From Streptomyces sp. SPB074 (GTDB lineage: Bacteria > Actinomycetota > Actinomycetes > Streptomycetales > Streptomycetaceae), in contig NZ_GG770539.1 in assembly GCF_000154905.1 (NCBI RefSeq), positions 2,009,177-2,051,322 on the forward strand: DNA of 42,146 nucleotides, written 5' to 3'. Positions 20,907 through 23,622 of this stretch are shown one piece after another. Under the pieces are notes generated by a model. The model worked only from the letters and a program-made list of their open reading frames with translations. It was not told where the DNA came from and made no database searches. Position 1 is the first letter of the stretch. The number at the start of each line of letters is the position of its first letter. The position numbers were made by a program, and so were the translations under genes.

Positions 20907-21725
20907 ATGGCCGACTACCACGATGATCTGCGCCTCGCTCACGTCCTGGCCGACGCCGCCGACGCCACCACGATGGAGCGCTTCAAGGCGCTGGATCTCA
21001 AGGTCGAGACGAAACCCGACCTGACGCCGGTGACGGAGGCGGACAAGGCGGCCGAGGAACTGATCCGCTCCCAGCTCCAGCGGGCCAGGCCGCGCGACGC
21101 GATCCTCGGCGAGGAGTACGGGCTGCGCGGCACGGGCCCGCGCCGCTGGGTGGTCGACCCGATCGACGGCACGAAGAACTACGTGCGCGGGGTGCCGGTC
21201 TGGGCGACCCTCATCTCGCTCATGGAGCTGTTCCCGGGGCGCGAGGGCGAGCAGGACACCTGGCACCCGGTGGTCGGGGTCGTCTCCGCACCGGCGCTGA
21301 ACCGCCGCTGGTGGGCGGCGTACGGGCACGGCGCGTTCACCGGGCGCAGCCTCACCTCGGCGAGCCGGCTGCGGGTCTCGGGCGTGCGGCGCATGGCGGA
21401 CGCCTCGTTCGCGTACTCCTCGCTCACCGGCTGGGAGGAGCAGGGCCGGCTCAACGGGCTCCTCGACCTGAGCCGGGCGGTGTGGCGGACGCGCGGCTAC
21501 GGGGACTTCTGGCCGTACATGATGGTCGCCGAGGGTTCCGTCGACATCTGCGCCGAGCCGGAACTGTCGCTGTGGGACATGGCGGCGAACGCGATCGTGG
21601 TCACGGAGGCGGGCGGCACCTTCACCGGCCTCGACGGCCGCCCGGGCCCGCACAGCGGCAACGCGGCGGCGTCGAACGGGGTGCTGCACGACGAGCTGCT
21701 GAGTTATCTGAACCAGCGGTATTGA
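20907..21725 (+). CDS. hisN: Histidinol-phosphatase of the inositol monophosphatase family
   Basis: 272 aa. Metal and phosphate ligands of the IMPase fold are present: Glu69-Glu70 (GEEYG), DPIDGTKNY with Asp84 and Asp87, and Trp223-Asp224 (WDMAA). The family also includes inositol and fructose phosphatases; histidinol-phosphate as substrate follows from the S. coelicolor orthologue at this place, for which HisN activity was reported. It lies apart from the his operon. The ATG at 20907 sits at a likely leaderless start. Its 3' side faces the catalase gene across a 424-bp spacer with a large palindrome. Confidence 0.9.
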   Translation: MADYHDDLRLAHVLADAADATTMERFKALDLKVETKPDLTPVTEADKAAEELIRSQLQRARPRDAILGEEYGLRGTGPRRWVVDPIDGTKNYVRGVPVWATLISLMELFPGREGEQDTWHPVVGVVSAPALNRRWWAAYGHGAFTGRSLTSASRLRVSGVRRMADASFAYSSLTGWEEQGRLNGLLDLSRAVWRTRGYGDFWPYMMVAEGSVDICAEPELSLWDMAANAIVVTEAGGTFTGLDGRPGPHSGNAAASNGVLHDELLSYLNQRY

Positions 21726-21885
21726 GGGAGGGGGGCGGGGGGCGCAGAGGTGGGGGCCCGCCCCCAGTGGTGGGGCTTGCGGCGGCGGGAGCGCCCACCG
21801 TTGGGAGCCCAAGCCGTGGGGCCCGCACCCGTGGGCATCCGTACGGGCGTCCATCATGCGGAGGGACGCCGGACCGCGAGAGCGG

Positions 21886-21915
21886 GGCCGGGCCGGGCCG
21901 GGCCGGGCCGGGCCG
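21886..21915. repeat. GGCCG pentanucleotide microsatellite, 6 units
   Basis: Six exact head-to-tail GGCCG units. Likely prone to slippage; no functional claim. Confidence 0.9.
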
Positions 21916-22031
21916 GTCGAGGGTGTCGCGCAGCAAACCGCGAACCGCGAACAGCCCCCTCCCGCCCAGGGGGGCGTCCCCTATACAAGTCTCCCAAATC
22001 CCCACCCCCTCCCCCGCCCAACCCGGCACAT

Positions 22032-22113
22032 CTGTGGATAACGCGAGGAAACCCGCGCGACGCCTCACCGTTTCGAGTGAGCCGTCGCGCGGGTTCCGCC
22101 GAGTTGTCCACAG
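22032..22113. repeat. 82-bp palindrome flanked by two DnaA-box-like 9-mers
   Basis: Outer arm: CTGTGGATAAC (22032-22042) against GTTGTCCACAG (22103-22113), one wobble. Middle arm: 22047-22062 against 22083-22097, 15 bp with one bulged A. Inner arm: CTCAC (22064-22068) against GTGAG (22077-22081), 8-nt loop. The outer arm contains TTATCCACA (minus strand, 22041-22033) and TTGTCCACA (plus strand, 22104-22112); the latter is the Streptomyces DnaA-box consensus. Transcribed, it would also form a very stable hairpin and could terminate both convergent genes. Confidence 0.9.
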
Positions 22114-22149
22114 GTGCCGACGGGCCCCGGCCCGGGCGGCGCGGGGTGC

Positions 22150-23622
22150 TCAGGCCGCGCGCTTCGCCCGCCTGAGGGCCACCGCTTCCTCCAGCCGCTT
22201 GCCGAAGTCGCCGTCCGCCTTGCGGAAGTTGGCGATCGCCCGCTCCGCGATGCCGTCCCGCGAGACGCCCGAGATCGAGTCCGCGAGGTTCGTGATCAGC
22301 CGGTCCTTGGCGTCCTCGGGCATCAGCCGGTACAGGGTGCCCGCCTGGACGAAGTCGTCGTCCTCCGGGTGCGCGGGCGCCTCGTGGGTGCCGGTCGCGC
22401 CGGAGACGCCCGTCGGCTGCCACAGCGGCTGCCCGGTCTGCGCGGGGGGGCCACCGAAGCTGTTCGGCTCGTAGTTCTTCGTACCGGCGTGACGGCCGTC
22501 GTAGAGGAAGCCGTCCCGGCTGTACGTCCGCGCCTCGGCCGCGTGCGGGCGGTTGACGGGGAGGTGGTCGGCGTTGATGCCGACGCGGTAGCGGTGCGCG
22601 TCCCCGTAGGCGAAGAGGCGGCCCTGGAGCATCTTGTCGGGCGAGGGGCCGATGCCGGGCACGAAGTGCGCGGGGCTGAAGACCGACTGCTCGACCTCGG
22701 CGAAGACGTTCTGCGGGTTGCGGTTGAGCTCCAGCCTGCCGATCTCGATGGGCGGGTAGTCCTCGTGCGGCCACACCTTGGTGAGGTCGAAGGGGTTGAA
22801 GCGGTAGTGCCCCGCGTCGGCGGCGGGCATGATCTGCGCCTGCACCGTCCAGCTCGGGTACTCGCCGCGCTCGATCGCCTCGCGCAGGTCGCGCTGGTGC
22901 GAGTCGGGGTCCGCGCCCGCGAGCCGCGCCGCCTCCTCGGCCGTCAGCGTCCTGATGCCCTGGTCCGTCTTGAAGTGGTACTTGACCCAGAAGGTCTCCC
23001 CGGCCGCGTTGTTCCACTGGTACGTGTGCGAGCCGTAGCCGTTCATGTGCCGGTACGAGGCCGGGATGCCGCGGTCGCCGAAGAGCCACGTCACCTGGTG
23101 CGTGGACTCGGGCGAGAGGCCCCAGAAGTCCCAGACGTTGTCCGGCTCCTGCGAGCCCGTGTACGGGTCGCGCTTCTGGGTGTGGATGAAGTCGGGGAAC
23201 TTGATGGCGTCCTTGATGAAGAAGACCGGGGTGTTGTTCCCGACGAGGTCGTAATTGCCGTCCTCGGTGTAGAACTCCAGCGCGAAGCCGCGCGGGTCGC
23301 GCACGGCGTCCGCGGCGCCGAGGTTGCCCGCGACGGTCGAGAAGCGCAGGAAGGTCTCGGTGCGCTTGCCGACCTCCGAGAGGAAACGCGCCCGCGTCCA
23401 GCGGCTCACGTCGGCGGTCACGGTGAAGGTCCCGTAGGCGCCCGCGCCCCGGGCGTGCACGACGCGCTCCGGGATGCGCTCCCGGTTGAAGTGGGCGAGC
23501 TTCTCCAGGAGCGACTGGTCCTGCACGAGGACGGGCCCGCCGACGCCGGCGCTCTCGCTGTTCTGGTTGTCGGCGACCGGAGCCCCGGCCTCGGTCGTGA
23601 GTGGTCCCTGCCCCTGTGTCAC
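22150..23622 (-). CDS. catA: Monofunctional heme catalase, peroxide-inducible
   Basis: 490 aa from the GTG at 23622, which has GGGAGG 5 nt upstream and gives the expected start VTQGQGPL. Catalytic His56 (VVHARGAGA), Asn129 (LVGNN) and proximal heme ligand Tyr339 ([10 protein letters not shown]) are all present. The size and the short C terminus place it among small-subunit catalases. It is divergent from a Fur-family gene and shares a 132-bp regulatory region with it, as in the CatR-catA pair of S. coelicolor, where CatR represses catA until H2O2 oxidises it. Its end lies 37 bp from the DnaA-box palindrome. Confidence 0.95.

Follow-up and report, generated by a model that had tools for sequence, protein, structure and literature searches.

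A genus-wide candidate operator at Streptomyces DNA-uptake genes and its two-sided, probably clade-specific copy between hisN and a catalase gene

Introduction

Many Streptomyces genomes carry a site of rigid geometry, TCAC-N8-GTGA-N23-TTRTCCACA, that faces genes for DNA uptake and Tad-type pili and that has the look of a previously undescribed operator controlling DNA uptake as a regulon. This genus-wide candidate operator is the main result of our analysis. The window, a stretch of 42,146 nucleotides from Streptomyces sp. SPB074 (contig NZ_GG770539.1), holds a palindrome between hisN and a catalase gene that the initial annotation treated as a single element; beyond that view, it appears to be a two-sided copy of the genus-wide site. 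By itself the palindrome is likely to be no more than an accessory copy confined to one clade. On balance we favor the reading that it is one of the scattered copies, peculiar to a clade, of a regulatory site that marks DNA-uptake and Tad-pilus promoter regions in many Streptomyces, and that it would act as a regulated mini-promoter/terminator and as a decoy.

Little is known of how competence is controlled in Actinomycetota, and in M. luteus the upstream signals and the regulatory cascade remain to be identified according to an excerpt of a 2026 paper (PMC12849477). The com mutations of M. luteus are concentrated at two genes, one of the excisionase HTH family and one for RcpC/CpaB, as stated in a portion of PMC8467076. 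A literature search that covered few subscription journals found no description of the palindrome or operator element, which agrees with the initial annotation that the arrangement may be undescribed, and a search on the 9-mer itself returned mostly unrelated titles.

Results

The palindrome between hisN and the catalase gene

The window palindrome is long and imperfect, with arms at 22029-22068 and 22077-22116 that are 83% complementary over 40 nt around an 8-nt center. RNA of 22020-22130 folds at -72.5 kcal/mol as compared with -42.7 kcal/mol (sd 3.8) in shuffled sequences, none of 200 of which folded as low. Its ends are inverted 9-mers, both DnaA-box-like, that are the only exact occurrences of TTRTCCACA in the 42-kb window. 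The first, TTATCCACA (22033..22041, minus strand), is the E. coli form of the DnaA box and faces the second conserved block described below; the other is TTGTCCACA (22104..22112, plus strand). The arms, the fold and the exact boxes thus establish as real the palindrome with two inverted 9-mers that had been proposed at 22032-22113. The naming of one 9-mer as the Streptomyces DnaA box is likewise borne out, as TTGTCCACA equals the high-affinity DnaA box of S. coelicolor in Table 1 of PMC4285127, the part of that source used here.

The two genes that flank the palindrome are convergent, with hisN (20907-21725, plus strand; TIGR02067, above cut-off) ending 304 bp and the catalase gene (22150-23622, minus strand) ending 35 bp from it. 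The sole NCBIfam match of the latter is PRK11249 (E-value 6e-142), a match that falls short of the cut-off of that family. We agree with the earlier statement that these genes leave the 9-mers unexplained. Among Rfam families, the region 21700-22400 gave four matches up to an E-value of 5, all below gathering thresholds, with the best at 20.6 bits versus 80. Between hisN and the element, tandem GGGCC/CCGGG units occupy 21888-21916, a place that holds different sequence in the sister species.

A 15-bp inner arm had been put forward as the conserved part of the palindrome. What recurs instead is the pair of 9-mers together with a central inverted repeat, TCAC-N8-GTGA (22065..22080), that lies 23 bp from either 9-mer, and this geometry is also found genus-wide. 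In the window, TCAC-N8-GTGA-N23-TTRTCCACA with up to 2 mismatches matches only at the palindrome, once per strand, and has no match in 100 shuffles; each half of the palindrome in fact fits with 0 mismatches. The two-box core measures 80 bp from box to box (22033..22112), as defined by a pattern search of the SPB074 genome and by the two-box loci of three species.

The element does not start at 22032 as first annotated, since the unit runs on to 21945. This 173-bp composite unit (21945..22117, minus strand) consists of the palindrome, a spacer and a second conserved block, module 2 (ATTTGGGAGACTTGTATAGGGGACGCCCCCCTGGGCGGGAGGGGGCTG; 21952..21999, minus strand), that is conserved among copies and in which a GC-rich hairpin follows a -10-like part, an arrangement suggestive of a promoter/terminator. 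The -10-like sequence, TTGTATAG (21981-21988, minus strand), is itself conserved among copies. The 57 nt that separate the 9-mer from the module-2 C-run (21976..22032, minus strand) comprise a C/G-rich spacer and the -10-like part.

A dispersed family in three Streptomyces species

The initial annotation had suggested that the same arrangement be sought in this and other Streptomyces genomes, and such a search shows that the palindrome is not unique but is a member of a dispersed family scattered through three species: SPB074, Streptomyces sp. SID11385 and NRRL F-5630. In SPB074, TGTGGAYAA-N40-70-TTRTCCACA occurs at 7 places, 6 of them exactly 80 bp long, with no match to the reversed control. 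Across named GTDB contigs, TGTGGAYAA-N23-TCAC-N35-TTRTCCACA gave 29 stretches, 28 of which are in SID11385 and NRRL F-5630, and among 392 Streptomyces genomes the same pattern matched in SPB074 alone. The remaining stretch, in Alkalihalobacillus (L040), was taken as chance, as were 7 stretches with an exact match in a viral collection (contig GC 0.39-0.63). A plasmid collection gave just two weak partial matches.

A sequence model of 34 copies matched 56 times in SPB074, 111 times in SID11385 and 79 times in NRRL F-5630, with many sites counted on both strands. This model (R1) and the 34-copy alignment were made from exact-box copies, so that box invariance in the alignment is partly by construction; it excludes two one-mismatch copies (L003, L004), a 67-bp copy (L012) and an 80-bp match in another Streptomyces genome (L018). 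We fetched 80 loci, which for SID11385 represent 33 of the 42 places among the matches listed; one more place (contig C79) was read in addition to these. Both boxes are present within one mismatch in total at 53 of the 80, and box-to-box length among these is 80 bp in 44, 79 bp in 3, 81 bp in 1, 89 bp in 3, 90 bp in 1 and 67 bp in 1. The 79-, 81-, 89-, 90- and 67-bp copies, together with the 27 loci that have no second box within that limit, rule out one fixed 80-bp length for all. We read 25 of these 27, and the right-hand box is exact in 23 of them and has one mismatch in 2. Among the SPB074 copies listed, all fall within 0.84-5.93 Mb of the 6.81-Mb contig, with none in the outer 0.8 Mb on either side.

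The unit is present between hisN and the catalase gene in both sister species, oriented in NRRL F-5630 as in the window and reversed as a whole in SID11385 (L147), where it is 83% identical to the window unit along 174 bp of the opposite strand and the other intergenic DNA is for the most part unalignable. Orientation is kept in 41 of 44 flank-joined cross-species locus pairs; two of the three exceptions are the SID11385 hisN-catalase locus paired with each of the other species, and the third, which has a match on just one flank, is not taken as the same place. An earlier proposal was that orthologous loci keeping the hairpin while losing the 9-mers would reduce the element to an ordinary terminator. 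The opposite is observed, as both sister species keep both 9-mers while 19-21 of the 80 core positions differ between species.

These comparisons bear on the possibility, which we regard as improbable, that the family is a miniature mobile element with DnaA-box-like ends. As with MITEs, the copies are dispersed and homologous and differ in presence or absence between relatives. For example, no 9-mer (up to 1 mismatch) exists at the orthologous places of L160, L140 and L134 in SPB074 or of L160 in NRRL F-5630, half of a site is found at the L149 locus of NRRL F-5630, and the 173-bp unit has been flipped at hisN-catalase in SID11385. However, 56 of the 78 loci (the fetched loci minus L107 and L108, which are second-module matches) have a counterpart in another species as judged by their flanking sequence, and the ends of the copies that carry module 2 are not a simple inverted pair. 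Additionally, neither a target duplication nor a clean empty site was found in the four loci aligned, of eight in the flank query, which is a weak test given how far the intergenic DNA has diverged. Thus the earlier suggestion of a mobile palindromic element is upheld as to copy number, the flipped locus and presence or absence between species, including 9-mers missing from relatives, and is not upheld as to target duplication and clean empty sites. A clean transposition story is unsupported by the locus alignments.

Copies with and without module 2

In many copies a second conserved block, GGAAGACTTGTATAGGGGTCGCCCCCCGGG.GGG.GGGGGCTG, follows past the spacer in one orientation. We refer to copies with this module 2 as class T and to those without it as class P. 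The 78 loci comprise 50 class-T copies (8 in SPB074, 16 in NRRL F-5630 and 26 in SID11385), 21 class-P copies (7 per species) and 7 unclassifiable loci whose sequence is masked or ends. Labels were given by a C-run pattern, with two changed by hand (L147, L121), and the module-2 patterns were chosen after the copies had been viewed. The distance from 9-mer to C-run is 57 nt in 34 of the 50 class-T copies and 56-61 nt in 46. According to gene calls made by our own codon-usage script, 36 of 50 class-T copies have, within 600 bp, a gene that is transcribed in their direction (median 88 bp), and 15 of 21 class-P copies have, within the same distance, a downstream gene that points away from them. 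The window copy (21945-22117, minus strand) belongs to class T, a class that is clade-specific, mostly placed after genes and provided with a promoter/terminator-like module at a fixed distance. In NRRL F-5630 (L117) and SID11385 (L145), an STM4015-family gene also has a promoter-type copy some 130 bp upstream, and this gene is a possible extra member of the regulon.

The placement of class-T copies raises an alternative that we rate as rather unlikely, namely that the palindrome is an ordinary bidirectional terminator, or 3' hairpin, that ends the hisN and catalase transcripts with the 9-mers being incidental. A very stable hairpin after a stop codon, as expected of an intrinsic terminator, is indeed present 35 bp past the catalase stop and 304 bp past the hisN stop, and the location of class-T copies after genes also fits termination and counts against our own proposal. 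Pairing of the inner arms points the same way in class T, averaging 11.1 of 22 positions versus 9.9 (sd 0.39) when arms are exchanged between copies (7 of 2000 exchanges as high, n=23). Class-P arms show no such preference for their own partner, with 8.4 versus 8.6 after exchange (1448 of 2000 as high, n=19). A hairpin function is therefore possible for class T. Among the 34 aligned copies, three measures stand above shuffles, namely the percentage paired, the covariation score and the number of cells changed on both sides, which were reached by 0, 0 and 2 of 500 shuffles. The remaining two, pairs with both sides changed and the number of further pair types, do not stand out, being reached by 378 and 160 of 500. 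As the copies are related, these pairing and covariation counts are suggestive only. Against this alternative, pairing at the hisN-catalase locus is kept across all three species at only 3 of 17 varying pair positions, the hairpins of many family members are weak or one-sided, and the rigid 9-mer/TCAC-GTGA geometry also lies upstream of uptake genes in other species. That every copy is a terminator is ruled out by the promoter-type copies, which have neither module 2 nor inner-arm pairing.

A geometry shared across the genus

With E limited to 0.001, the sequence model, whose E-values are rough, had matches in 78 of 131 Streptomyces genomes (SPB074 included), most of these matches being weak. 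The best eleven of them, when read, exhibit TCAC-N8-GTGA-N23-TTRTCCACA or a close form, mostly near recognizable genes. The exact pattern is present in 87 of 199 Streptomyces genomes (SPB074 included) and missing from the other 112, with the reversed-pattern control giving no match in all 199. When the gap was freed to between 10 and 38, 62 of 67 matches in 120 other genomes had a gap of 23, and the rest were at 22, 24, 35, 37 and 38; SPB074 gave one further match at 22 and one at 10. Among 246 genomes of the class, 10 contain the pattern, all of which are among the 22 from Streptomyces, and none of the 224 actinomycete genomes from other genera contains it.

Variants of the site recur at particular loci. 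Of the 17 sites outside SPB074 that face neither ssd nor DUF6099, 7 have another exact 9-mer located 18 bp closer to the palindrome, forming the tandem arrangement TCAC-N8-GTGA-N5-TTRTCCACA-N9-TTRTCCACA. At ssd sites the corresponding place has the consensus ATATTCACA, which has 2 mismatches, and a further TCCACA is located 20 bp beyond the TCCACA of the last 9-mer. A -10-like sequence lies 45-50 bp past the last 9-mer, TGGGTAG at DUF6099 sites and TGGTAT in class T; neither word occurs at +45-50 from the 9-mer in the ssd consensus. As seen by eye, TCAC-N-STG-N-GTAG or a similar word lies about 40 bp past the last 9-mer at DUF6099, yraN and other loci, with another occurrence past the ssd locus on its far side; this word might be the core promoter of some sigma factor.

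The likeness of the 9-mers to DnaA boxes invites comparison with known DnaA-box cluster systems, namely datA, DARS and the Bacillus clusters, and clusters in Streptomyces were reportedly the subject of a 2006 study. By analogy with datA or the Bacillus clusters, many copies with paired DnaA boxes could serve as a reservoir that titrates DnaA, although we consider this doubtful. One 9-mer equals the S. coelicolor DnaA box, the copies listed are spread over 0.84-5.93 Mb of the 6.81-Mb chromosome, and tandem boxes 18 bp apart exist at some uptake-gene sites, all of which favor titration. However, there are usually just one or two exact boxes per copy, the genus-wide sites face particular genes rather than being scattered anywhere, and TCAC-N8-GTGA stands at a fixed distance. 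We know of no role of such a part in DnaA titration. Exact TTATCCACA and TTGTCCACA boxes, tandem at some uptake-gene sites and inverted in the window family, are thus the likeness to DnaA-box systems including oriC, and the difference is that the 9-mers here are tied to TCAC-N8-GTGA 23 bp off and placed before particular genes.

Genes faced by the sites

Gene context was classified for all 95 exact sites outside SPB074, a count that omits four loci with no exact match (L015, L169, L172, L174) and the SPB074 sites L267-L269. With tblastn, 70 sites were assigned to ssd, 8 to DUF6099, 3 to yraN-yifB and 2 to comF, while 2 come after DUF2469 with no recognized yraN (L221, L265) and 10 had no reference match. 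By reading, sites L222 and L266 precede comEA, L176, L202 and L223 precede a CpaB/RcpC-like gene, and L187 and L207 precede an ssb-like gene. No uptake gene was recognized alongside L170, L171 and L240 (3 of the 95). As the 70 ssd sites are orthologous, independent support comes from approximately seven distinct loci, six of which are DNA-uptake or pilus loci.

The ssd gene encodes the septum site-determining protein Ssd, a Tad-pilus-type CpaE homolog (TIGR03815 on the SPB074 copy, E 1.4e-90), and presumably heads the tad operon. Among representatives, ComEA (SPB074, HHH_3, 1.5e-17), SSB (L187, PF00436), DUF6099, UPF0102 (YraN), MazG-like and YifB all score above Pfam or NCBIfam cut-offs, while RcpC (L202, PF16976; 24.7 bits versus 28.8) and comF (L192, TIGR00201; 45.9 versus 233.6) score below theirs. 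We assume that dprA follows yraN-yifB and that comEC follows comEA. DUF6099 is a candidate competence gene. At eight sites (L178, L181, L188, L200, L210, L227, L248, L264) the DUF6099 gene immediately follows a MazG-like one.

The window copy does not precede any gene for uptake or pili, lying as it does between convergent genes. Elsewhere in SPB074, sites with no module 2 are found at the ssd locus (L095), before comEA (L103/L269, where the preceding gene is taken as degV), before yraN-yifB (L100, with a one-mismatch 9-mer), before an ORF whose beginning resembles comF and past which hpf is found (L097, also with a one-mismatch 9-mer) and at a DUF6099-like locus (L099), with the comF and DUF6099 labels given by likeness of the sequence read and not by a profile. 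As the same genome carries such sites at uptake-gene promoters, the window copy is best seen as a copy of that site that has moved to a gene end and become joined to module 2. The ssd-locus sites of the three species (L095, L122, L153) are two-sided, 80 bp long and devoid of module 2, and the ssd sites read in other Streptomyces look one-sided. The scattered copies may have originated from this two-sided site.

Discussion

Our preferred explanation, that the window palindrome is a displaced copy of an uptake-gene operator, would work as follows. A dimeric regulator on the TCAC/GTGA repeat would bind jointly with a protein that recognizes the 9-mer, either DnaA or some other, and the bound complex would assist RNA polymerase at a promoter located about 45-50 bp from that 9-mer. 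In the case of the window copy, the predicted transcript would start straight into the GC-rich hairpin and be aimed at the 3' end of hisN, such that this copy may be a regulated mini-promoter/terminator and also an extra binding site, or decoy, for the competence regulator.

Several well-known systems resemble parts of this picture. Competence regulons with a dedicated promoter element include those of ComK boxes and of SigX/cin boxes. The likeness lies in one cis-element before an uptake-type pilus gene, comEA, comF, an ssb-like gene and yraN-yifB, and the difference is that we noticed no sequence likeness of those boxes to the Streptomyces site. REP/BIME and MITE sequences are multi-copy intergenic palindromes that are partly species-specific. 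The window family is so as well, but differs in having a rigid multi-part spacing in common with gene-specific sites and in showing no target duplication in our alignments. In Neisseria and Haemophilus, inverted pairs of DNA-uptake sequences, present in thousands of copies, serve as terminators. The window family shares with them inverted short words, hairpins after genes and a competence context, but has tens of copies, not thousands, and its word is also that of an apparent uptake-gene operator. The competence system of M. luteus (a Tad/Flp pilus, comEA/EC and the HTH_17 and RcpC/CpaB locus) overlaps in the genes comEA/EC, RcpC/CpaB and TadZ/CpaE, as given in a portion of PMC8467076. The Streptomyces motif, in contrast, is found in 0 of the 224 genomes from other genera, a sample that may or may not include M. 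luteus, and the excerpts of PMC8467076 and PMC12849477 used here name no such motif.

A wider reading, which we offer tentatively as a possibility that falls short of our preferred explanation, is that Streptomyces have a conserved competence regulon comprising the Tad pilus, comEA(-EC), comF, yraN-yifB(-dprA), cpaB/rcpC, an ssb-like gene and DUF6099, in which one compound operator made of a palindrome and DnaA boxes would act as the switch and link uptake to DnaA. In one clade, this operator would have been fused to a promoter/terminator cassette and have reached tens of intergenic sites, where it would serve as a portable decoy or as a promoter for small RNAs.

One rigid cis-element common to ssd and to comEA, comF, yraN-yifB, cpaB-like and ssb-like genes makes control of competence in Actinomycetota directly testable and is a concrete lead on how Streptomyces might switch on competence. 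Why an uptake-gene site should have spread, in one clade, to the ends of tens of genes is an additional puzzle. If DnaA is among the proteins that bind the site, DNA uptake would be tied to the control of replication.
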